DNA of 41,623 nucleotides, taken from assembly GCA_016209795.1 (NCBI GenBank), contig JACQVI010000105.1, positions 1-41,623 of the forward strand, given 5' to 3'. Positions 12,007-25,670 of the stretch are shown here, piece after piece (the first letter of the stretch is position 1; every line of letters begins with the position of its first letter). The notes beneath the pieces are model-generated. The model ran no database searches. It saw nothing but the letters and a program-made list of their open reading frames with translations, and had not been told where the DNA came from. This stretch comes from Ignavibacteriota bacterium. Its GTDB lineage: Bacteria; Bacteroidota; Ignavibacteria; UBA10030; SZUA-254. The position numbers were made by a program, and so were the translations under genes.

Positions 12007-12122
12007 GAATTAGAAATGTGCAATGTCTGTCCAGCGTAGCAACCCGCGTTGGACAAGGTGCATCGCATGTTTCCTCCGCTTTCCCTTTTTCCCATGATCT
12101 TCGTATCTTAGCTCGTGTCATG

Positions 12123-12175
12123 AATCCCACCCCTTTTTCCCTCCCTTTAATAAAGGGAGGGATATGGGAGGGATT
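12123..12175. repeat. Nested palindromic intergenic element (copy 2)
   Basis: Perfect 12-bp inner stem tccctcccttta(12138-12149)/taaagggaggga(12151-12162); outer aatcccacccc/tgggagggatt. Confidence 0.65.
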
Positions 12176-12191
12176 TTCAAGGACTGCACTA

Positions 12192-14045
12192 ATGAATCCA
12201 TCATCAAGAAAAACACTGCTTCTCGTCTACGACGGCGATTGCAGCTTCTGCCGTCTCTGGATCGAGCGATGGAAACAGATCACCGGTGACAGGGTTGCCT
12301 ACGAACCGTATCAAGAGGCTGCACAGCATCTTCCAGACATTCCTGTTGAGGAATTCAAACGCTCCGTTCAGCTCATCACGAAAGATGGCGAAAGATTCAA
12401 CGGCGCAGAGGCTGTGTTTCGTTCGCTTGCACTCGTCCCTAGTAAGCGCTGGATGCTGTGGGTATACCAGCACTTGCCCGGCGGTGCGTTTGTCTCAGAA
12501 TCGTTTTATCGTTTTGTTGCAAAGCATCGCAGCGGTCTCTATAAACTCACTCGCTTTTTCTGGGGTAAAAATCTTCAGCTGCCAACCTACGTCCTCACCC
12601 GGTGGCTTTTCCTTCGATGTATTGGACTCATCTATCTTATTGCCTTTGCCTCGTACGCCTCACAACTTCTTGGCTTGATCGGAAGTAATGGAATTCTTCC
12701 TGCACAGCAGTATCTTCAGCTCATTCGCGAGAATGTTGGTACTGTGCGTTTCTGGCAGTTCCCTACGCTTGCCTGGCTCAGCACAAGTGATACTTCTCTC
12801 CAGGTTCTCTGCTGGGCTGGTGTGGGACTTTCGCTCCTTCTCATCGCTGGAATCTGGGCAAGGGTTGTTGCAGCACTGCTGTGGGTTTTATATTTGTCTC
12901 TCTATGTCGTTGGGCAAACATTCTTATCGTTTCAGTGGGACATTCTGCTGCTCGAAACCGGCTTCCTGACAATTTTCTTTGCACCAGGACAATTCCTCCC
13001 AAAGCTTGCTCGTGAGCGACTGCCATCCAAAACACTGCTCTGGCTGTTTCGTCTGTTACTGTTCCGATTGATGTTCTTCTCAGGCTACGTGAAGCTTGCC
13101 ACCAACGACCACTTCTGGCTTGATCTCACAGCACTTACCGTTCATTACGAAACACAGTGCATTCCTACTCCAATCGCTTGGTATGCGCACCAGCTTCCTC
13201 TCTGGTTTCAGAAGTTCTCCTGCGGCACCATGTTCGCAATCGAACTGGTAATTCCATTCCTCATTTTTGCTCCGCGGCGTTTGAAATTCTCCGGAGCCTG
13301 GACAATCATCTTTTTCATGCTTCTTATCATATTGACGGGCAACTACAACTTTTTCAATCTTCTTACCATTGCATTGTGTGTATTGCTTCTCGATGATACG
13401 GCTCTGAAGCGATTTCTCCCGAAGAAGTTAGTGGAGATAATCGCATTTGTTAATTCTGCTGTGACAATGAGGCGGGTCAAGCGGATAGCTTTTGCTCTGT
13501 TTGCTACTATCATCGTATATTTGAACATCGTGCAGTGGATTGCACTATTTGTGGAGTGGAAAGATATGCCAAAGCCCATTGTCGCACTTGAGCGCTGGGT
13601 AACACCTTTCAATCTCGTCAACCATTATGGCTTGTTCAGAGTTATGACAAACCCACGCTACGAGATTATTATCGAGGGAAGCAACAATGGGAGGACATGG
13701 CTTGCGTATGAGTTCAAATACAAGCCGGGCGATGTGAAGCGAGCACCGCCGTGGGTTGAGCCACACCAACCTCGCCTCGACTGGCAGATGTGGTTTGCTG
13801 CATTAGGAAGCTACCAGCAAAACCAGTGGTTTGTCAATTTCTGTGTGCGATTGCTGCAAGGCTCAGAGGATGTGATTGATCTGATTGAGAAGAATCCATT
13901 TCCGAATAATCCGCCTCGCTCAGTTCGCGCGCTATTGTATGAGTATCACTTTACTGATTTCACAAGAAGGCAAAACACAGGAGAATGGTGGAGACGGGAT
14001 TTGAAGGGCTTGTACATGCCAGCGATTTCTCTAAGGATGGAGTGA
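12192..14045 (+). CDS. DCC-type thiol-disulfide domain fused to a lipase maturation factor (LMF1)-like membrane protein
   Basis: N-term LLLVYDGDCSFCRLWIERWKQITGD (DCC, CxxC-type); C-term polytopic region with GLFRVMTNPRYEIIIEGSNNGRTWLAYEFKYKPGDVKRAPPWVEPHQPRLDWQMWFAAL (LMF-like). Start refined to 12192; the ORF-track N-terminus is read from the palindromic element. Confidence 0.85.
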   Translation: MNPSSRKTLLLVYDGDCSFCRLWIERWKQITGDRVAYEPYQEAAQHLPDIPVEEFKRSVQLITKDGERFNGAEAVFRSLALVPSKRWMLWVYQHLPGGAFVSESFYRFVAKHRSGLYKLTRFFWGKNLQLPTYVLTRWLFLRCIGLIYLIAFASYASQLLGLIGSNGILPAQQYLQLIRENVGTVRFWQFPTLAWLSTSDTSLQVLCWAGVGLSLLLIAGIWARVVAALLWVLYLSLYVVGQTFLSFQWDILLLETGFLTIFFAPGQFLPKLARERLPSKTLLWLFRLLLFRLMFFSGYVKLATNDHFWLDLTALTVHYETQCIPTPIAWYAHQLPLWFQKFSCGTMFAIELVIPFLIFAPRRLKFSGAWTIIFFMLLIILTGNYNFFNLLTIALCVLLLDDTALKRFLPKKLVEIIAFVNSAVTMRRVKRIAFALFATIIVYLNIVQWIALFVEWKDMPKPIVALERWVTPFNLVNHYGLFRVMTNPRYEIIIEGSNNGRTWLAYEFKYKPGDVKRAPPWVEPHQPRLDWQMWFAALGSYQQNQWFVNFCVRLLQGSEDVIDLIEKNPFPNNPPRSVRALLYEYHFTDFTRRQNTGEWWRRDLKGLYMPAISLRME

Positions 14046-14067: not shown

Positions 14068-15384
<1,317 letters not shown>

Positions 15385-15554: not shown

Positions 15555-16232
15555 TTATAACAGAATACATTTGATTTCCTGAAATTTACTGATCGTATAA
15601 TCCGCCGCATCGGTCGATGATGGTTCTGACCAACTTTTTCCCTTGAGCCAGATCGTTGTGCAGCCAAGCTGTTTCGCTGGAACGATGTCATTTTCATATG
15701 AGTCGCCAACAACCCATGCATTTTCAGGTGTAACACTCAAATTCTTGAGTGCAAGCGACCAGATAGCCGGATCGGGCTTTCGCAACCCAACAACTGCTGA
15801 ATCTATCAAAGTGTCGAAGTATTTCACCAACCCAAGCTCTGAACAAACTTTGTTTAGGTTGCCATAGAAGTTGGATACGAGCGCTAATGTATAGCGAGGC
15901 TTCAATTCGTCCAAGACGAGACAAACTCGTTGAACAATCAGTCGTACGTCACGCAAACAAGCATCAGCCATTTCTTCTACTAATCCATCCATCGCACCCA
16001 CATCAAGCATCTTAAACTGTATGGTTAATTGCCTTTTCACCGTTTCCTTGAAGCTCATCTCGGTAATCTGAGGTTCAAGCCCAACTTGCTTATCCGATTC
16101 CAAGAATGCTGGCTCGTAGATGTTCTTGTCGACTTTTACACCAAAACGCTCATACAGTTCCCAGAGCTTCTCGCTCCAGTGAACGCCATCGGTATCGATG
16201 GTACCGCCAAAGTCAAATAATACTGCTTTCAT
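15555..16232 (-). CDS. HAD-superfamily hydrolase
   Basis: MKAVLFDFGGTIDTDG (motif I), LVSNFYG (motif II), RKPDPAIW (motif III), VGDSYENDI (motif IV). Confidence 0.9.
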   Translation of the reverse strand: MKAVLFDFGGTIDTDGVHWSEKLWELYERFGVKVDKNIYEPAFLESDKQVGLEPQITEMSFKETVKRQLTIQFKMLDVGAMDGLVEEMADACLRDVRLIVQRVCLVLDELKPRYTLALVSNFYGNLNKVCSELGLVKYFDTLIDSAVVGLRKPDPAIWSLALKNLSVTPENAWVVGDSYENDIVPAKQLGCTTIWLKGKSWSEPSSTDAADYTISKFQEIKCILL

Positions 16233-17245
16233 CCAACATCTATCATCGCATTTTTCTCAGACGCCTTATAACTCAAATCCAGCATCTTCATTACATTGAA
16301 CGCTTCACATAGAAAATCATCTGAGGTATTCTGCTCTTCAATACGCTTCACGAATTCTTTGATGAGTGCTGCATACCAGCTCACATACTGATTCTTATCA
16401 GACACATCAGGCATAGGAATTTCTTGTGTACCAGCTGAGTTTGAGAAAAGAAGTGCTTTCTCGTTGTAAAAGAGCGAGCCTTCCGTACCAACTATGTGCA
16501 GACTGTTCGCCCGCTGGTTCGCCGCCCATGTGAGATTCACCTGCATCAGCGTTTGATCATACTCGAGTGTGACAAGTGCCGTATCCTCGACATCATAGTC
16601 AACGTGTTTCAACGTGCGAAGCACAGAAAATACTCTCTTTGGAACGCCGAAGAAATACTGTGCAAGGTAAAAATAGTGCGCACCGGTATCAACCAAAATT
16701 CCCCCGCCGCTATGGTTCCGCTTCGTCCGCCAATCAGGACTCCATGCCGTCGTCCCTGAATCAGCATGAAGGCGAAAGACGTTGAATTGTGCAAGCGTCG
16801 CCGTTCCCAATTTTTTCGACGCGATAAACTCATGAATTGTCTTCCAGAGCGGAGAGTATTTGTACTGATGACACGGCACAAACACAATGTGACTCTCGCG
16901 GACGAGTTTAACAAGCCCCGATGCTTTCGCATAAGTCTCCGTCAAAGGTTTTTCGCATAGGATATGAATACCTTTCGTGGCACATCGTTGGATGTAGTCG
17001 GCATGCGTATGTGGAGGTGTACAGATATCAACAAAGTCGAGTCGCTCGTTTTCCAACATTGATAGAAAGTCGGTGTAGAACTTTGCTTCGGGGAAATATT
17101 GCCTCAGAAGCTCACGGTTTTGTCCAACAACATCCATCACAGAAGCGATCTGAACCTTAGAGCGAAGGACTTCATCGCTGAGATATGCAAGGACATGCCC
17201 CCGCACGGCAATATTGCCGAATCCTATTATTGCTCCCTTTAACAT
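16229..17245 (-). CDS. Gfo/Idh/MocA-family oxidoreductase
   Basis: MLKGAIIGFGNIAVRGH NAD-binding motif, DFVDICTPPHTHADYIQRCATKGIHILCEKPLTET. Start refined to 17245 (TAATG overlap with the upstream gene). Confidence 0.92.
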   Translation of the reverse strand: MLKGAIIGFGNIAVRGHVLAYLSDEVLRSKVQIASVMDVVGQNRELLRQYFPEAKFYTDFLSMLENERLDFVDICTPPHTHADYIQRCATKGIHILCEKPLTETYAKASGLVKLVRESHIVFVPCHQYKYSPLWKTIHEFIASKKLGTATLAQFNVFRLHADSGTTAWSPDWRTKRNHSGGGILVDTGAHYFYLAQYFFGVPKRVFSVLRTLKHVDYDVEDTALVTLEYDQTLMQVNLTWAANQRANSLHIVGTEGSLFYNEKALLFSNSAGTQEIPMPDVSDKNQYVSWYAALIKEFVKRIEEQNTSDDFLCEAFNVMKMLDLSYKASEKNAMIDVG

Positions 17246-18183
17246 TATGCTAACACCTTTCCCGAAGGGATGAATTTCCACTGTTCGTCAATCTGCTGGA
17301 GAAGCTGCGCGCTGAGTTTTTCCTGATGCGTAGTGACAAGCACCATGACCAAATTGATGCCGATAACCTCAACAGCGAAATAGAACGGCACAACATCCAG
17401 AAGAACACAGATCGCCATAACGATCATACGTGTGTTTGTTGTCAGGATTGCGTAGTATTTCATAAGCGGCTTGTTCATTTTGCGATACGCATCAGCAAAC
17501 CATTGCGGAATGTTTACGCCAAACTCTAGATCAACACGCTTGCGGAGCCTTTGGAAGTTTTTGGAAAATGCTTCTTGCTCAACCGTGTAGTTGAGGTATA
17601 CACGTAGGAGAATTTTTCGTATCGGATGTTTGAAAAACGACGTTGCAAGATATTCTGCCCGGATTTCATCTGCACCCTCAAGCTCAGATTTTGCTGGATC
17701 GACAACAAATTTAAGATAGGCATTACGATAATAATCGGCGAGTGCGCTTTGAATTGAATGACTAACACCTCCAGCCAGCGTCAACAGAAAAAACAGGGAC
17801 CAGGGGAAATCGTACGTCACTGCCATCCGAGCAAACAGATGGAGGTAAATGCTTATGAACATAATGTTGCCTCCGAGTCCATCGAGGATTCGTCCGATCT
17901 TCGAGCGATGATTGGTCATGCGAGCAAGCTGTCCATCGACACTATCGAGTGTATCTGCGATGACCCAGAGGATAATGCCATAGAGGTTCAGCGTGATGTC
18001 CCTATAATAGAGAAGGTGCCCACACGTCACACCAATGAAGATACTGACGATTGTGACAATGTTTGGTGTAATGCCAAGCCTTTGACAGCCCAAAGCTATG
18101 GCATAGCCAAGCGGACGATAGAAGTAAATATCAATCGTCTCTTCGACATCGCGCGCTTTATAAGTTTCTTCGATCCGCGACAT
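17245..18183 (-). CDS. CDP-alcohol phosphatidyltransferase family protein (paralog 1)
   Basis: DSVDGQLARMTNHRSKIGRILDGLGG matches DxxDGxxAR-x8-GxxxDxxx(D) except that the last Asp is Gly; several TM segments. Confidence 0.88.
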   Translation of the reverse strand: MSRIEETYKARDVEETIDIYFYRPLGYAIALGCQRLGITPNIVTIVSIFIGVTCGHLLYYRDITLNLYGIILWVIADTLDSVDGQLARMTNHRSKIGRILDGLGGNIMFISIYLHLFARMAVTYDFPWSLFFLLTLAGGVSHSIQSALADYYRNAYLKFVVDPAKSELEGADEIRAEYLATSFFKHPIRKILLRVYLNYTVEQEAFSKNFQRLRKRVDLEFGVNIPQWFADAYRKMNKPLMKYYAILTTNTRMIVMAICVLLDVVPFYFAVEVIGINLVMVLVTTHQEKLSAQLLQQIDEQWKFIPSGKVLA

Positions 18184-19516
18184 GAGTAAAAGCTACTTCC
18201 ATGATTTCTATGCCTTCCTCAGCTGTTGCCTCGTCAATAATCAGTGGTGGATTGATACGAATATCGGGATTATATCCCATCACGATCAAGCCACGCTTCA
18301 GGCATTCTTTAAAAAACAATTTGCACGTTTCCTTGTCAAGTTTTTCCTTCGTCTGTTTATTCTTAACAAGCTCCACACCGATCAGCAAGCCTCTGCCGCG
18401 GACATCGCCGACAAACGAAAATTTTTCTTTGAACGCCATCAATTTATTCAGCATGAAGGCACCAACACGTGCAGAGTTTTCCACCAATCCTTCATCGATG
18501 ATCGTCTTGACAGTTGCATAGGCTGCGGCAGCTGCAAGTGGATTACCACCGTAACTGGATGAACTGCCGCTTGGATTGGCAAATGGTTTTGAAAAAATAA
18601 CCTCATCACGTGACATCAGCCCTGTCATTGGATACCCACCCCCAAAACTCTTGCCAATGGTAATGATATCCGGTACGATGCCATCATGCTGGCAACCAAA
18701 CATCTTTCCCGTTCTCCCAAAGCCTGTGATCATCTCGTCCACAATCAACAATGCCCCGATTTCGTCAGCAACACGACGGATTTCTTTGAGATAACCAGCA
18801 GGAGGAACGAGATTACCATTTGTTCCTTGAATTGGCTCGACGATGATTGCCGCGATGTTGTTGGTTGTCTCGAGCTGTATTTTCTGTTTAATAAAGTCAA
18901 CACATGCCCATTCACATTCAGGGAATGTATGGTTCAGTGGGCATCGTCGGCAATTTGCGTACGGAGTATTGTAGACTCCAAATGGTAAGGGTCCTAGCTG
19001 ATGTTTAAAATCGTCTCCGATTAGTCCAAGAACACCGAGCGTTTTTCCATGAAATCCTCCCCAGAAGCCAATGACTTCTGATTTCTTGGTGTATGATTTT
19101 GCAAGTCTCAGTGCCGCTTCGACTGCCTCAGCGCCGCCGCTATAATATTGAGTGCGTCTCAAATCACCTACAGCATTCTCAGCGAGGAGTTTTGAAAGCT
19201 CAGCGCGAACTTTTGTTGCAAAGCTGCCAACATGAATTTTCGCAACCTGTTCCTGAATCGCTCTTACGTACTTAGGGTGATTGTATCCCAAACTTGAAAC
19301 GGCCACTCCTGCAAAGAAATCGATGTATCGATTGCCGTCAACATCTTGAACAACACAGCCTTCACCTTTCTCCAGGACAATCTGAGAGAGCGTAGCAATT
19401 GTCTGAATGCCCGGAGAAATATACTGCTGTTCGAGGTTGAAGATCTCTCTCGACTTTGGTCCCGGTACCTCTGTTCGGACAACTGCTTTTTTAGCCACTG
19501 GTTCCTGAAGTAACAT
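18158..19516 (-). CDS. Class-III PLP-dependent aminotransferase (GabT/ArgD-like)
   Basis: GNRYIDFFAGVAVSSLGYNHPKYV, YYSGGAEAVEAALRLAK, GFHGKTLG, LIVDEMITGFGRTGKMFGCQHDGIVPDIITIGKSFGGGYP (PLP Lys). Confidence 0.93.
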   Translation of the reverse strand: MLLQEPVAKKAVVRTEVPGPKSREIFNLEQQYISPGIQTIATLSQIVLEKGEGCVVQDVDGNRYIDFFAGVAVSSLGYNHPKYVRAIQEQVAKIHVGSFATKVRAELSKLLAENAVGDLRRTQYYSGGAEAVEAALRLAKSYTKKSEVIGFWGGFHGKTLGVLGLIGDDFKHQLGPLPFGVYNTPYANCRRCPLNHTFPECEWACVDFIKQKIQLETTNNIAAIIVEPIQGTNGNLVPPAGYLKEIRRVADEIGALLIVDEMITGFGRTGKMFGCQHDGIVPDIITIGKSFGGGYPMTGLMSRDEVIFSKPFANPSGSSSSYGGNPLAAAAAYATVKTIIDEGLVENSARVGAFMLNKLMAFKEKFSFVGDVRGRGLLIGVELVKNKQTKEKLDKETCKLFFKECLKRGLIVMGYNPDIRINPPLIIDEATAEEGIEIMEVAFTHVADRRNL

Positions 19517-20327
19517 ACTCTTGTGCCTTTCTGTAAATCACTTGTGCAATGCGTTGGCTCGCCTGCTCACGAATCGGCGCAAAGCTGGGCCAATCGTTGA
19601 TATCGATAATCGTAATGCTACCGTCTTTGCCGATGATGGCATCACCGCCGTAGACGAACAAGCCTAAAATTTCTGCCGATGCCGAAGCAAGCTCGCGGAG
19701 TCTTTTCGTATCGAACTTAACATTGTACACTCCGTTGGTGTAGTACCAGTGGAACAGATCAGACTCACGAACAGCATAGAACTTCACCGTATCGCCGTCA
19801 ACGTGTTCTTGCAAGATTGCCTGCATGATGTCTCGTGCGTGAAACTCCTTAAGAAGTGTTAACTCTTCATCGTCTGTATTCGCAAGAGTCACGTCCTCCT
19901 TGTGGACTGCGTGCACGTCACCTCGTTTGATCCAGAGTTTCGATGTTGTAAATCCTGCTTCTTTTCCATTGGTGTCAGAGTCCGTCGCTACAACAACGCT
20001 TCGCGGAAATGGAATGCCGGCTTCCGGCAGCAACTTCACCATGTTGATCCGGTAACAATTGATCACACTTCGCGGTGAATTGATAATGTATGCACCGCGC
20101 TGTTCAATCTTCATCAATGTGTTCGATCCAATGGGACCCTGAGCCATAGAAAAGACGAGTTTTTCCTTCATAGTCTCAGGCGTGATAACCCCTTCATCAT
20201 ACATTGTCACCTCCGCGCCAAGTTCTTTCAATGCCTCACCTGTTTGGTTGATGATGAGAAGATCGTTCACCACATGGTTTGGTGAAAATTCTGTTTTTCG
20301 TCGTATGCCTGCAAAATGAATTTTCAT
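19491..20327 (-). CDS. ATP-grasp domain protein (RimK/ITPK-like)
   Basis: SVINCYRINMVKLLPEAGIPFPRSVVV, LWIKRGDVHAVHKEDV, FVYGGDAIIGKDGSITIIDINDWPSFAPIREQAS: ATP-grasp arrangement with terminal DIN-x-WP motif. Confidence 0.8.
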   Translation of the reverse strand: MKIHFAGIRRKTEFSPNHVVNDLLIINQTGEALKELGAEVTMYDEGVITPETMKEKLVFSMAQGPIGSNTLMKIEQRGAYIINSPRSVINCYRINMVKLLPEAGIPFPRSVVVATDSDTNGKEAGFTTSKLWIKRGDVHAVHKEDVTLANTDDEELTLLKEFHARDIMQAILQEHVDGDTVKFYAVRESDLFHWYYTNGVYNVKFDTKRLRELASASAEILGLFVYGGDAIIGKDGSITIIDINDWPSFAPIREQASQRIAQVIYRKAQEYVTSGTSG

Positions 20328-20971
20328 GAGAATAATCTAAATAAGTATGTTAACAGCGATGGCGGATCTTCAGGTTGTGCAAATCCCATTTTGCGTTCTG
20401 CTTCACGTCGAAGCATTGCCTGCATATCAATGTCCCTCTGAAGACGATAATCAACCATGATTGTCCCGATGACAAACGTTGTTAAGTTTGCAAAAAAGAT
20501 CACATGTATTGCAAGATCAAAGCCACGAACATTGAACAGCGCCGTTGCAACATACCCAAGATAGATCATGAATCGTTTGAACCCCGGGTCAAAGTGTGAA
20601 AGCGGATGCACTACGGTAACCAGAACGATCGCAACGAAGGCGAGAATTGCAATCAAGAAGCTTGAATGACCTGCGTATGCAAGAGCCAACAAGATGGCAA
20701 GCTCATTTAAACGATCATAAATGATTTCAAGCTTCTCTCCTTTCTGTGACCGTAAATTGTATCGCCGCGCTACGCCACCATCCAAACCGTCAATAATTTG
20801 TGAAACTGCTAAACTCATCAGTCCAGTTACAACGAATCCAGCAGCAAAAAGAAGTGCAGCTATCATTCCAACCAGAAAGCCAACAGTGGAGATCTGGTTT
20901 GGTGTGAGTCCAAGTTTTTCGTGCGACACTCGAATCAACCCACTCAACACACCGTCAGTTTGACTTCCCAT
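20324..20971 (-). CDS. CDP-alcohol phosphatidyltransferase family protein (paralog 2)
   Basis: DGLDGGVARRYNLRSQKGEKLEIIYD: DxxDGxxAR-x8-Gxxx(E)xxxD, third Asp replaced by Glu; multi-TM. Confidence 0.85.
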   Translation of the reverse strand: MGSQTDGVLSGLIRVSHEKLGLTPNQISTVGFLVGMIAALLFAAGFVVTGLMSLAVSQIIDGLDGGVARRYNLRSQKGEKLEIIYDRLNELAILLALAYAGHSSFLIAILAFVAIVLVTVVHPLSHFDPGFKRFMIYLGYVATALFNVRGFDLAIHVIFFANLTTFVIGTIMVDYRLQRDIDMQAMLRREAERKMGFAQPEDPPSLLTYLFRLFS

Positions 20972-20973
20972 CG

Positions 20974-21447
20974 TCAGCTCCCGGAAAAAATATTCGTAGC
21001 AAACTCAGCGAGGTGTTCATAACCCAAGATCACAATGAACACACCACAGATCATACAGGTCAATAGTTCTTTTGCTGTATCGGAACATCTCGGGAGCAAC
21101 CCCTCAGTCGAATACGTACTAAACGGATAGAATGGCCGCTTTTCATAACTCACAAGATAATCAAGAAAGAAATGCGAGACAAAAAAAAGTGTAGGCACAT
21201 ATGTCCCAAGATAAATCGATAGCGGGATAATCCAGAGCAATGCAATCGGTTCTTGAAGTGGTGTCCGCCAATGATAATTTTTTTCATTCTTTCTTCCATT
21301 CTTTCTTAGATACAATGGTAACTTGATAGGATGATCAATAACATCAATTCCATAACCAAATGCATACGCAAAGATGATGTCCCTTCCCTCTAGACCTAAT
21401 GCCTGGATGCCGGCTGTTGTTAACAAAAGGTGAGGAATGATTGTCAT
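20974..21447 (-). CDS. Small membrane protein resembling the DUF457/YdjM putative metal-dependent hydrolase family
   Basis: 157 aa; FGYGIDVIDHPIKLPLYL, NYHWRTPLQEP, SHFFLDYLVSYEKRPFYPFS. Confidence 0.5.
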   Translation of the reverse strand: MTIIPHLLLTTAGIQALGLEGRDIIFAYAFGYGIDVIDHPIKLPLYLRKNGRKNEKNYHWRTPLQEPIALLWIIPLSIYLGTYVPTLFFVSHFFLDYLVSYEKRPFYPFSTYSTEGLLPRCSDTAKELLTCMICGVFIVILGYEHLAEFATNIFSGS

Positions 21448-21465: not shown

Positions 21466-22440
21466 TTACACTGGTTGAACACCATTGCCACTAAATCCCT
21501 TCACAAGCGTTTTAAAAAGAGAGAGCTTATCATTATCAATCTGAGATGCACGATAGACGCAGTCGACAGCGCAACCTTCTTCGCACCCTTTTTCCGTTTT
21601 CGCGTGTGTTCGAATATCATCCAAGGTATACTCAACGACTGGTTTGTTCAAACGACCACGCTGTGAGGCACAGAACTGCACCTTTCCAAATTCATCGACA
21701 TAGAGCGAGCGCGATCCAGCTCGACATATCCATGATGGACGCTCTCCTTGGAGAAGTTTTCGACTGTACTCATAATCGACCATGCTAAATCCAAAGTGAT
21801 TGGATATCTTCCCATAGTACTCGTATAATTCCAAATATCTCTCACCTGAGATCGCTATCTGCCCTACTTCGTCGTGGATCACACTAAGACTCATCGGGAT
21901 ACCAAGCTCTTGCGCTTCGTGGAGAAGATCTTTCAATTCTTCTTTTGAATGCTCGCAGAGCACTGCCGAAAGGTGCAGATCAAATTGTGCAAGCTTTTTT
22001 AGTCGAATCAGTTTCGGTCGAAGAACTTTTAAGGATTTCTGAATATAATTTGTAGGGTCCTGTTTCGATGTATCGACGCTGATCTGCATATGACTAAGCC
22101 TCGCTTCATTGAGCTGCTGAATCAGCTTCTCCGATAGAAAAAATCCATTTGTGGTGATCGAAACAGACGAATGTCGCCGAGCGTATGCAACGATTTCAGC
22201 GACCTTTGGATGCATCAACGGCTCACCACCAAGCAAACTAATGTGCACTACCCGAAGCTTATGCAGCGAATCAATCCAGCGACATATCTCGTCAAACGGA
22301 ACTGGTGCTGATGTGTTATCATATTCAAAGCAATACCCGCAGCTCAAATTACAGCGCCGTGTTACAATCAGTTGCGCCTCGATGGGTGCTTTTTTCACAA
22401 GAATGTTATAGAGCGTCCGTATGGGTCGTTCGATTTTCAA
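21466..22440 (-). CDS. Radical SAM protein with SPASM-like C-terminal cysteine cluster
   Basis: VTRRCNLSCGYCFEYD (CxxxCxxC), LLGGEPLMHP, ITTNG; C-terminal CRAGSRSLYVDEFGKVQFCASQRG...CEEGCAVDC. Confidence 0.9.
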   Translation of the reverse strand: MKIERPIRTLYNILVKKAPIEAQLIVTRRCNLSCGYCFEYDNTSAPVPFDEICRWIDSLHKLRVVHISLLGGEPLMHPKVAEIVAYARRHSSVSITTNGFFLSEKLIQQLNEARLSHMQISVDTSKQDPTNYIQKSLKVLRPKLIRLKKLAQFDLHLSAVLCEHSKEELKDLLHEAQELGIPMSLSVIHDEVGQIAISGERYLELYEYYGKISNHFGFSMVDYEYSRKLLQGERPSWICRAGSRSLYVDEFGKVQFCASQRGRLNKPVVEYTLDDIRTHAKTEKGCEEGCAVDCVYRASQIDNDKLSLFKTLVKGFSGNGVQPV

Positions 22441-22461: not shown

Positions 22462-23424
22462 TTAAAACACCGAAACGCGAATATACCGATCAGGATGCTC
22501 TTTAAGATCAATAAGAAGAACATTCAAATCTTTGATGAGCGATAGCAACTGGTTATAGAAAGTACCGTCGTTGAGGAATTGTGAAACAGTGCTTGAATCA
22601 TGTGATGCTTTCTTCAACAATGTATCAGCTCGGGCAGTAATTGATGAAAGATCCATGTATAAACGATCTTCCATAATGAGTTTTCCCATCGTTCCTTTCC
22701 CCCGACTTATCTGCTCTGTGACACTTTTGAGATTTGCAGATACATCGCTTACATTCTTTGATAATACCTCATCATACACAAACTTTCCAAGGGTGCCTTT
22801 TTTATTTTCAACGGCAGCCATAACACCGTTCAATGAATGAAGGAAACGCTCCATCTCACCGGAAACGGAAGGGTGCTTGATCAACTGCCCAATCGAGCCT
22901 TCACCTCTCTCTATGGATGCGGCGATTCTTCGTGCGCTTGCCATCAATGCTGTGAAATCTGCGAGTGAGGATTTAAACTGCGGACCAGCAGTCTCAATAT
23001 CAAAAGACTCCATGAGGGGAACAAATGCCCCCTCTGCAAGCGGCTTCTCATTTGGGTTACCGATAGTAATATCGATGTATTTATCTCCTAATAATCCGAT
23101 CGTTTTAATCTGTCCGACCGAGTTGGTTGTGATCGACGAACGGTATTTCGACAAGACATCGATTGTGATCTCGACGCCGTTGGTATCGTTGCGAGAAACA
23201 AACTGCATGTCACTCACATAACCAATCTTCAATCCGCCCAACGTGATCATTGCGCCATTCACCAGACCGTGAACATTTGTCACAAACAACTTGAGAGAGT
23301 AGGTCGACGTAAAAATATTCTGCTCAGTACCAACGATACTGACGATGAACACAAACACAATGAGACCAATCAACACCACAACGCCCACTTTAAGATTTGA
23401 CCATGTCATTTGTTCGGGCTTCAC
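22462..23424 (-). CDS. MlaD/MCE-domain lipid transport protein
   Basis: N-terminal TM then LKLFVTNVHGLVNGAMITLGGLKIGYVSDMQF and GQIKTIGLLGDKYIDITIGNP, typical MCE domain; next to MlaF/MlaE. Confidence 0.92.
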   Translation of the reverse strand: MKPEQMTWSNLKVGVVVLIGLIVFVFIVSIVGTEQNIFTSTYSLKLFVTNVHGLVNGAMITLGGLKIGYVSDMQFVSRNDTNGVEITIDVLSKYRSSITTNSVGQIKTIGLLGDKYIDITIGNPNEKPLAEGAFVPLMESFDIETAGPQFKSSLADFTALMASARRIAASIERGEGSIGQLIKHPSVSGEMERFLHSLNGVMAAVENKKGTLGKFVYDEVLSKNVSDVSANLKSVTEQISRGKGTMGKLIMEDRLYMDLSSITARADTLLKKASHDSSTVSQFLNDGTFYNQLLSLIKDLNVLLIDLKEHPDRYIRVSVF

Positions 23425-23436
23425 GCTTCCGTCATC

Positions 23437-24186
23437 CTACTGCAATAATAAGTTTGCTTCTTCACGGATTTCAGAGAGGAAGCTTTCAATGAACTGATCT
23501 GTCGAGGAAACAAGATCGTGCGGCGAACCATCGATGATAATGCGTCCATCATTCATGAGAGCAAGCGAGTCACCGACGGCAAATGCGTCTCGCAGGATAT
23601 GTGTCACGACAACCGATGTGATGCCACGTTCCTTTTTTAATCTCATTATGAGTTCCGTGATGATCTTTGCATTTAATGGATCGAGACCCGTCGTTGGCTC
23701 GTCGTATAAGATGATTTCAGGATGAAAGGCGATCGCTCGTGCAATTGCCACGCGCTTCTTCATGCCGCCGCTGATTTCTTCCGGCAGTAAATCTTGTGTA
23801 TCCTGAAGGTTGACGAACTCTAAGCATTCCTTCACGCGTTCCTTAATCTCTCGAGGTGTCATCTCAGAATGCTCCTGGAGAAAGAAGCCAACATTTTCAG
23901 CCACGGTCAATGAATCAAATAATGCATTGCCTTGAAAGACCATCGACATGCGTTTGCGAATCGGCATTTTGTCACGCTCGCTCAGATCCGTAATCTCGGT
24001 ACCATCAACAAAGACTGATCCTCTGTTGGGTTTCCAGAGTCCCAAGATGATCTTCAGGAGAGAGCTTTTGCCAGCGCCGCTTGGACCAAGCATCACTTTT
24101 GTTTCACCCTGAATGACCTGACAGGAAACATCATCGAGAATCGTTCGATTCTCAAACTCTACTGTAACATGCTCGAGACGAATCAT
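23437..24186 (-). CDS. MlaF-like ABC transporter ATP-binding protein
   Basis: MLGPSGAGKSSLLK Walker A, EEISGGMKKRVAIARAIAFHPEIILYDEPTTGLDPLNAK. Confidence 0.94.
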   Translation of the reverse strand: MIRLEHVTVEFENRTILDDVSCQVIQGETKVMLGPSGAGKSSLLKIILGLWKPNRGSVFVDGTEITDLSERDKMPIRKRMSMVFQGNALFDSLTVAENVGFFLQEHSEMTPREIKERVKECLEFVNLQDTQDLLPEEISGGMKKRVAIARAIAFHPEIILYDEPTTGLDPLNAKIITELIMRLKKERGITSVVVTHILRDAFAVGDSLALMNDGRIIIDGSPHDLVSSTDQFIESFLSEIREEANLLLQ

Positions 24187-24978
24187 TTACAAAATCGACC
24201 AGACGACTTTCGTGAAGATAAAATCATTAAAGAGCACAACAACTGACGCAACCACAACGGCGTTCACCGCAGCTCGGCCTACACCGATTGTTCCACCAGT
24301 GGTCGTAAGTCCATAGTAGCAACTAATTGTCGAAATAAAAAAAGCAAACACAAACGGCTTTGCGAATCCCACAAATAAATCTTTCATCTTCAGATCATAG
24401 ATTGCAGAGTGCCAGTAAAACGATTTATCAACGTGCAGCCAGAGGTCTGACACGAACATGCCGCCAAGCAGACCAACGAGATCAGCGATAAGCGTTAGTG
24501 GGAAAAACATCACGAGTGAAGCAACAAGGCGCGGCACTGCAAGCTTTTCAATCGGATTTGTACCAAACGCACGTAGTGCATCGATCTGCTCACTCACTTG
24601 CATCGAACCGAGCTCGGAGGCGTTTTTTGCACCCGTTCGCGCTGCCATAAGTAACCCCGTAATCACAGGACCAAGCTCACGGACGAGAGCAAGTGACGTT
24701 GTTCGTCCAACAAGAAGCTTTGCACCAAAGGTCTCCAATCGATGCCCGGATTCAATCGACATGATCACACCCATGAAAAGCCCCGCAAGAAACACGATCA
24801 TAAACGCTTGTGCTCCAATCAAATACATCTGTTCCAACGTATCTTTCCGATACCGCCATACACTGGGCAACGCATACAGATTTTCAAAGACAAAAATGGA
24901 ATACTCTTGGAGACGAAACAGTGTACGTTTGAACGCACGGATAGGTATTATGACCGGTCTCGCTTCAGGCATGATCAT
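24187..24978 (-). CDS. MlaE-family ABC transporter permease
   Basis: FLAGLFMGVIMSIESGHRLETFGAKLLVGRTTSLALVRELGPVITGLLMAARTGAKNASELGSMQVSEQIDALRAFGTNPIEKLAVPR: MlaE signature. Confidence 0.94.
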   Translation of the reverse strand: MIMPEARPVIIPIRAFKRTLFRLQEYSIFVFENLYALPSVWRYRKDTLEQMYLIGAQAFMIVFLAGLFMGVIMSIESGHRLETFGAKLLVGRTTSLALVRELGPVITGLLMAARTGAKNASELGSMQVSEQIDALRAFGTNPIEKLAVPRLVASLVMFFPLTLIADLVGLLGGMFVSDLWLHVDKSFYWHSAIYDLKMKDLFVGFAKPFVFAFFISTISCYYGLTTTGGTIGVGRAAVNAVVVASVVVLFNDFIFTKVVWSIL

Positions 24979-25670
24979 GAAGCACGTAAAAACTCTTCTG
25001 CATTCTGGATATCGCGGAGATGATCCACGTCGACAATCTTCGAAAAGGGAAATGCTTCAAGTGAGTATCCTTTGTTCAAAAGATACCTTAAGAAGTTTCT
25101 TAGACGTTCGATCCCCTGTTTCACTACGGCATCCATCTCATTGAAGATCCTTGGTTGAAAAACGTAGAGCCCACCCGTAACCCATGGTGTTTGTTCAGAC
25201 TTGGAAAAGCTGTTAATGCACATTCGATCATCAACCTCAACATAAAGTGGTTTTTCATCATCAATAAAATTCGTGACAGCGAGAATAGCATCGAACGTTT
25301 GGTTTCGTTCAGCATGGTTCAGGAACTTCAAAAACTCATCCTCTGAAAAGATAGAATCGATTGTGGTAAGCAGAAACTGTCTAGTCTGCAAGTGCGGAGC
25401 TAAAGCAAACAGACTATGCATTGAGCTTGTGGTTGTCTTTACAATAAACGTTATTGGAATGTTAAACTGTTTTCCTTCAACAAACTGCTTCACAACTAGT
25501 GAATATTCATTCACGATACAAACAATCTCTGTAATGCCACCACGGATGAAGGATGTGATCAACCGCTCAATTAATGGTACGCCATTGACGGGCACCAACG
25601 GCTTATGCAGAGTAATTCCCTCCGACCGCAATCGACTACCTTCTCCTGCTGCTATGATGCCTGCCTTCAT
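24975..25670 (-). CDS. Nucleotidyltransferase (NTP_transferase; candidate inositol-1-phosphate cytidylyltransferase)
   Basis: MKAGIIAAGEGSRLRSEGITLHKPLVPVNGVPLIERLI signature loop; substrate inferred only from gene context. Confidence 0.85.
   Translation of the reverse strand: MKAGIIAAGEGSRLRSEGITLHKPLVPVNGVPLIERLITSFIRGGITEIVCIVNEYSLVVKQFVEGKQFNIPITFIVKTTTSSMHSLFALAPHLQTRQFLLTTIDSIFSEDEFLKFLNHAERNQTFDAILAVTNFIDDEKPLYVEVDDRMCINSFSKSEQTPWVTGGLYVFQPRIFNEMDAVVKQGIERLRNFLRYLLNKGYSLEAFPFSKIVDVDHLRDIQNAEEFLRAS

Follow-up and report, generated by a model that had tools for sequence, protein, structure and literature searches.

The CDP-alcohol phosphotransferases (CDP-APs) are recognized by eight signature residues, arranged as D1xxD2G1xxAR...G2xxxD3xxxD4. 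Solved members bind two magnesium ions, Mg-1 through D1 to D3 and Mg-2 through D3 and D4, and D4 has been proposed to act as the base (PMC4634129, PMC6506517). A CDP-AP gene is also part of the "putative alternative inositol lipid cluster" that Heaver et al. (2022; PMC9246714) described from Bacteroides vulgatus and Prevotella, together with genes for myo-inositol-1(3)-phosphate synthase (MIPS), a nucleoside triphosphate (NTP) transferase and a HAD protein. Here we describe two CDP-APs encoded on contig JACQVI010000105.1 (assembly GCA_016209795.1) of an Ignavibacteriota bacterium; this whole stretch of 41,623 nucleotides is referred to as the window. Each of the two departs from the signature at a different Asp. 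CDP-AP 1 lacks D4, and we consider it likely that it is nevertheless an active CDP-alcohol phosphotransferase, which carries out headgroup transfer in the alternative inositol-lipid pathway of Bacteroidota.

For the published cluster, Heaver et al. predicted a route in which CDP-inositol and diacylglycerol yield PI-DAG and then PI-DHC, an inositol sphingolipid; these functions are predicted and unconfirmed. They also describe production of PI-DHC by B. vulgatus without homologs of BT_1522/23/25. Their PHI-BLAST pattern includes D4, and the main text mentions neither a missing D4 nor the ATP-grasp gene discussed below. A different CDP-AP operon has been reported from Parabacteroides (PMC11300592). 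Our searches of open-licence papers returned no description of a D4-less CDP-AP and no tested alternative cluster.

Both CDP-APs of the window pass the PF01066 gathering score of 22:

17245..18183, minus strand: CDP-AP 1, a CDP-alcohol phosphotransferase that lacks D4 (PF01066, 39.7 bits; 312 aa)
20324..20971, minus strand: CDP-AP 2, a CDP-alcohol phosphotransferase in which Glu82 replaces D3 (PF01066, 42.9 bits; 215 aa)

The CDP-AP 1 motif (DSVDGQLARMTNHRSKIGRILDGLGG) has the signature DSVDGQLAR...GRILDGLGG, with seven of the eight residues present; Gly105 (codon GGC, 17869-17871, minus strand) occupies D4 and is followed by Asn106. CDP-AP 2 (DGLDGGVARRYNLRSQKGEKLEIIYD) reads DGLDGGVAR...GEKLEIIYD and also has seven of the eight, with Glu82 (codon GAA, 20726-20728, minus strand) at D3 and an intact D4 followed by Arg. 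When the nucleotide sequence was re-read, both open reading frames, both substitutions and both codon positions proved exactly as in the initial annotation. CDP-AP 1 can be aligned to the solved CDP-AP AF2299 across the D3-D4 segment with no gap, so the missing D4 has not been displaced or hidden by an indel. The source genome encodes eight PF01066 proteins, and the remaining six keep all four Asp. Separately, two neighboring D4-intact CDP-AP genes (encoding ~330 aa) occur in the same genome as the window (locus L005, genome G000, contig C250), and this pair recurs in members of the family. CDP-AP 1 and CDP-AP 2 had been called paralogs, a term that holds only loosely: they are similar only across a signature region of 70 residues (hhalign, 94%) and have different closest relatives.

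Because homology is clear, we count CDP-AP 1 as a variant relative of the PF01066 family by descent rather than as a canonical member. Its AlphaFold2 model (pLDDT 85) predicts the helical CDP-AP fold. The best PDB match is AF2299, and every one of the 19 highest-ranked PDB matches is a CDP-AP. Most of them have a Foldseek probability of 1.00, but E is no better than 2e-3 and TM is 0.45. Fold match and the residues D1xxD2GxxAR...GxxxD3 are shared with the class I CDP-APs, namely AF2299 and the phosphatidylinositol phosphate (PIP) synthases PgsA1 and RsPIPS. CDP-AP 1 differs from these in the lack of D4 and in its length (about 310 aa), with extra helices beyond the fourth long helix, and CDP-AP 2 differs in having Glu at D3. 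The CDP-AP 2 model, built from a six-sequence alignment, had a pLDDT of 55 and was not used.

Loss of D4 extends well beyond the window. We surveyed 396 genomes of the phylum, as well as 301 from one gut family (f49, to which B. vulgatus belongs); CDP-AP 1 family matches occur in 237 of the 301. Among 69 distinct Bacteroidota homologs read directly, D4 is replaced by Gly in 61 and Ser in one, and is Asp in seven. All orthologs from Ignavibacteria, Sphingobacterium, Dysgonomonas, Muribaculaceae and Prevotella have Gly. D1, D2, G1, A, R, G2, and D3 are kept in all 62 D4-less homologs. The Glu at D3 of CDP-AP 2 is likewise present in 7/7 orthologs. Given that both substitutions are fixed in orthologs, neither reflects drift, and sequencing error is ruled out; our confidence in the substitutions and their conservation is very high. 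Comparison of the CDP-AP 1 gene with its family orthologs (dN 0.16-0.24, dS 2.8 or saturated) indicates that it is under purifying selection. In genome G395 CDP-AP 1 is present twice, the two copies lying 15 kb apart; the second (locus L085, match at 18195, plus strand) has Ser at D4 and Glu at the following position (D4+1).

The seven D4-intact sisters all come from genomes of a single order. The two whose surroundings were read (L096 and L102) lie outside the inositol cluster, in genomes that lack the NTP transferase. In a maximum-likelihood tree computed without the D4 column, 35 D4-less rows and two D4-intact sisters form one supported clade (100/95). The best tree requires the D4 state to change twice, and a single origin of the loss is possible.

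CDP-AP 1 genes recur in a conserved setting across Ignavibacteria, Sphingobacterium, and Bacteroidales, where the core consists of the NTP transferase, an ATP-grasp protein, CDP-AP 1, the HAD protein and usually MIPS. In the window, the partners of CDP-AP 1 in this core are:

24975..25670, minus strand: NTP transferase, a candidate CTP:inositol-phosphate cytidylyltransferase (PF00483)
19491..20327, minus strand: ATP-grasp protein (no Pfam match; PDB profile matches to ATP-grasp ligases and ITPK, E 3e-6 to 0.005)
15555..16232, minus strand: HAD phosphatase (PF00702, 2e-17), homologous to the HAD beside CDP-AP 1 in Bacteroidota
14068..15384, minus strand: MIPS (PF07994, 7e-110)

The NTP transferase has a profile match to the CTP-inositol-1-phosphate cytidylyltransferase 2xme (E 9e-10), although several other sugar-phosphate nucleotidyltransferases score higher. 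Against the curated IPCT-DIPPS model, which describes a fusion protein, it scores 54 bits and does not reach the cut-off of 580. Like the cluster of Heaver et al., the window has homologs of the NTP transferase, CDP-AP and HAD near MIPS. All four proteins match at locus L134 of genome G719, which we infer to be B. vulgatus ATCC 8482, with 38-57% identity. The gene order at L134 (NTP transferase, ATP-grasp, CDP-AP, membrane protein, HAD) agrees with the published tags BVU_RS13095/13105/13115. We assign the window genes to the alternative inositol lipid cluster with high confidence. The host's nearest relatives that carry a name are genomes of uncultured Ignavibacteria. The CDP-AP at L134 reads DSADGQLARLTGQKTQWGRMLDGFAGDIWF and lacks D4; G719 has one further PF01066 protein, with four Asp and a motif that we read as PssA-like. 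Since B. vulgatus makes inositol sphingolipids with only a D4-less and a PssA-like CDP-AP, loss of D4 is probably compatible with catalysis. Overall, the D4-less clade in most of the sampled gut Bacteroidaceae looks like the working inositol-lipid enzyme rather than a defective one.

For this pathway we infer the activity of CDP-AP 1, CDP-inositol as its donor, the acceptor and the identity of the base. MIPS would supply inositol phosphate, from which the NTP transferase would produce CDP-inositol. Via CDP-AP 1, phosphoinositol would then be moved to a lipid alcohol (diacylglycerol or ceramide) with release of CMP. D1, D2, and D3 would maintain the metal site beside CDP, and the proton of the acceptor hydroxyl would be removed by a group other than D4: His142, a repositioned Asp, Asn or Glu at D4+1, or the substrate itself. 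A precedent for a base other than D4 is the cholinephosphotransferase CHPT1, for which a His133/Glu129 pair on transmembrane helix 3 (TM3) has been proposed as the proton acceptor (PMC10182977). CHPT1 and CEPT1 possibly share the same logic, joining a CDP-linked headgroup to a lipid alcohol. However, CHPT1 has D4 in addition to this pair, whereas CDP-AP 1 lacks D4 and has Gly102 and Arg98 at the His133 and Glu129 positions.

Position D4+1 is Asp in 41, Asn in 20 and Glu in one of the 62 D4-less proteins (counts that are inflated by relatedness of the sequences); the seven D4-intact sisters have Asn, Ser, Gly or Ala there. The positions that change along with D4 are 47, 76, 90, and D4+1. An Asp at D4+1 acting as a one-residue shift of D4 is only partly viable as a solution, with Asp or Glu in 42/62 and Asn in 20/62, including the window. 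His142 and Gln145 are invariant in the D4-less proteins and in the D4-intact sisters, and are candidates for acceptor-side roles. In PgsA1, D4+1 is Arg94, close to the acceptor phosphate (PMC6506517); CDP-AP 1 has no Arg there, which would fit a neutral acceptor.

More broadly, we put at somewhat better than even the chance that a large, active CDP-AP clade dispenses with the "absolutely conserved" D4, using another proton acceptor perhaps tied to the Asp, Asn or Glu at D4+1, that this clade is the inositol-lipid synthase of the many gut Bacteroidaceae with the alternative cluster, and that the general-base mechanism of the family is not universal. With a natural D4-less clade that most of the sampled Bacteroidaceae-like genomes carry and that is linked to inositol-lipid genes, the function of D4 can be tested directly in the culturable B. 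vulgatus. Motif searches that demand all four Asp miss this alternative inositol-lipid pathway enzyme of gut bacteria.

Several points weigh against activity without D4. Replacement of D4 by Asn in the Mycobacterium tuberculosis PIP synthase (D93N) nearly abolishes activity while substrate binding is kept (PMC4634129), and in CHPT1 an Ala at any of the four Asp leaves <20% activity (PMC10182977). The window protein has Asn at D4+1, a residue that cannot serve as a base, and His142 is not particular to the D4-less proteins. One D4-less gene (G391) sits in a genome without the NTP transferase, the link between the D4-less gene and the B. vulgatus lipid is correlative, and in the papers searched we found no D4-less member that had been assayed or knocked out. 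With these points included, we hold with moderate confidence, on indirect evidence, that the D4-less enzyme is active. If it were not, CDP-AP 1 could be a pseudoenzyme that binds the CDP-alcohol and serves in regulation or scaffolding, with the chemistry done by another protein, such as PssA or the HAD. A residue essential in studied members is lost, and D1 to D3 alone could bind metal and nucleotide, as the substrate binding of D93N would allow. We consider a pseudoenzyme unlikely, as the seven other signature residues are strictly kept across the phylum, B. vulgatus has no further CDP-AP except the PssA-like one, and CDP-AP 1 is the sole recognized membrane transferase in most of these clusters. 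The initial annotation had offered inactivity, another base or another substrate as options for CDP-AP 1; conservation of the seven residues in 62/62 homologs and the place of the protein in B. vulgatus make inactivity unlikely, and another base or another substrate fits best.

A change of substrate could, on its own, have made D4 dispensable if the acceptor carries a phosphate, carboxylate or amine-bearing nucleophile that needs no general base. Consistent with this, the D4 loss maps to the lineage with the MIPS/NTP transferase cluster while sister genes outside it retain D4, and the headgroup chemistry may be unusual, to judge from the aminotransferase and ATP-grasp genes. Yet PI-DHC, the known B. 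vulgatus product, is an ordinary phosphodiester to a lipid alcohol, and core clusters without the aminotransferase also lack D4; we regard such an acceptor as quite improbable. The two CDP-APs had also been proposed to form an obligate heterodimer with complementing defects. Both genes lie in one operon, every genome of the window's family with CDP-AP 1 also has CDP-AP 2 (7/7), and solved family members are dimers (PMC6506517). As a general rule the proposal is unlikely from gene distribution, since CDP-AP 1 relatives occur widely in genomes that lack CDP-AP 2, which no sampled genome beyond the window's family contains. TM1-3 and TM4-6 have been described as building the nucleotide and metal site and the acceptor pocket (PMC4634129), so trading of single Asp residues across a dimer is not expected, and the two proteins are only distantly related. 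We judge the obligate heterodimer very improbable; a lineage-specific interaction between CDP-AP 1 and CDP-AP 2 is possible inside the window's family, where both always co-occur.

Alongside an active CDP-AP 1, our explanation treats CDP-AP 2 as a putative enzyme in its own right, restricted to one lineage, encoded in the same operon and predicted to use Glu in place of the D3 metal ligand. CDP-AP 2 was found in 7/15 genomes of the window's family and in no other genome among the 396 of the phylum (search at E 1e-15). Its best NCBIfam model is archaetidylinositol phosphate synthase (AIPS; NF040950, 62.5 bits), the cut-off of which (180) is not reached. The window NTP transferase and CDP-AP 2 resemble the IPCT domain and the DIPPS/AIPS domain, respectively, both far below curated cut-offs, and differ from these systems in being encoded by separate genes and in the Glu at D3. 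Arg87 directly follows D4 in 7/7 CDP-AP 2 orthologs and corresponds to R94 of PgsA1, a residue with a role at the acceptor phosphate (PMC6506517). This suggests that CDP-AP 2 uses a phosphate-bearing acceptor, such as inositol phosphate.

The window genes named above are part of a run of 13 on the minus strand (25670 down to 14068), many of which overlap by a few bases; strand and spacing point to a single operon. The order is NTP transferase, MlaE, MlaF, MlaD, radical SAM, small membrane protein, CDP-AP 2, ATP-grasp, aminotransferase, CDP-AP 1, Gfo/Idh dehydrogenase, HAD, and MIPS. The other seven genes are:

24187..24978, minus strand: MlaE-like permease (PF02405, 3e-72)
23437..24186, minus strand: MlaF-like ABC ATPase (PF00005, 4e-34)
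22462..23424, minus strand: MlaD-like lipid transport protein (PF02470)
21466..22440, minus strand: radical SAM protein (PF04055, 1e-20)
20974..21447, minus strand: small membrane protein with weak similarity to YdjM (E 0.001, below cut-off)
18158..19516, minus strand: class III aminotransferase (PF00202, 3e-98)
16229..17281, minus strand: Gfo/Idh/MocA dehydrogenase (nearest curated model inositol 2-dehydrogenase, below cut-off)

The window operon encodes several proteins in addition to those of the cluster described by Heaver et al.: MlaEFD, the aminotransferase and Gfo/Idh dehydrogenase, the radical SAM protein, and CDP-AP 2. Genes for MlaE, MlaF, and MlaD (window 22462-24978) are embedded in the inositol operon not only in the window's family but also in several further clusters of the class, which suggests that the product lipid is transported between membranes. 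What lies between MlaD and the YdjM-like gene (window 21466-22440) varies: the window and L043 have the radical SAM gene there, and L039 (5700-6800), L042 (5600-6800), and L104 (5250-6350) have a YbhN/HpnL-like membrane protein.

The ATP-grasp gene adjoins CDP-AP 1 in nearly all clusters, and its product shows weak likeness to inositol-phosphate kinases and RimK ligases; together with the HAD phosphatase, it could shift the position of the phosphate on inositol. In the clusters read, the aminotransferase and the Gfo/Idh dehydrogenase either occur together or are missing together (the pairing was noted for the window, L089, L091, L092, L095, L098-L101, L103, L104, and L039-L043). They could form an optional module, with an amino-inositol headgroup as a possible product. 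Several clusters with this pair carry two ATP-grasp genes. Adjoining the operon on the opposite strand (12018-14045) is a homolog of lipase maturation factor (LMF1) with an N-terminal DCC1-like domain.

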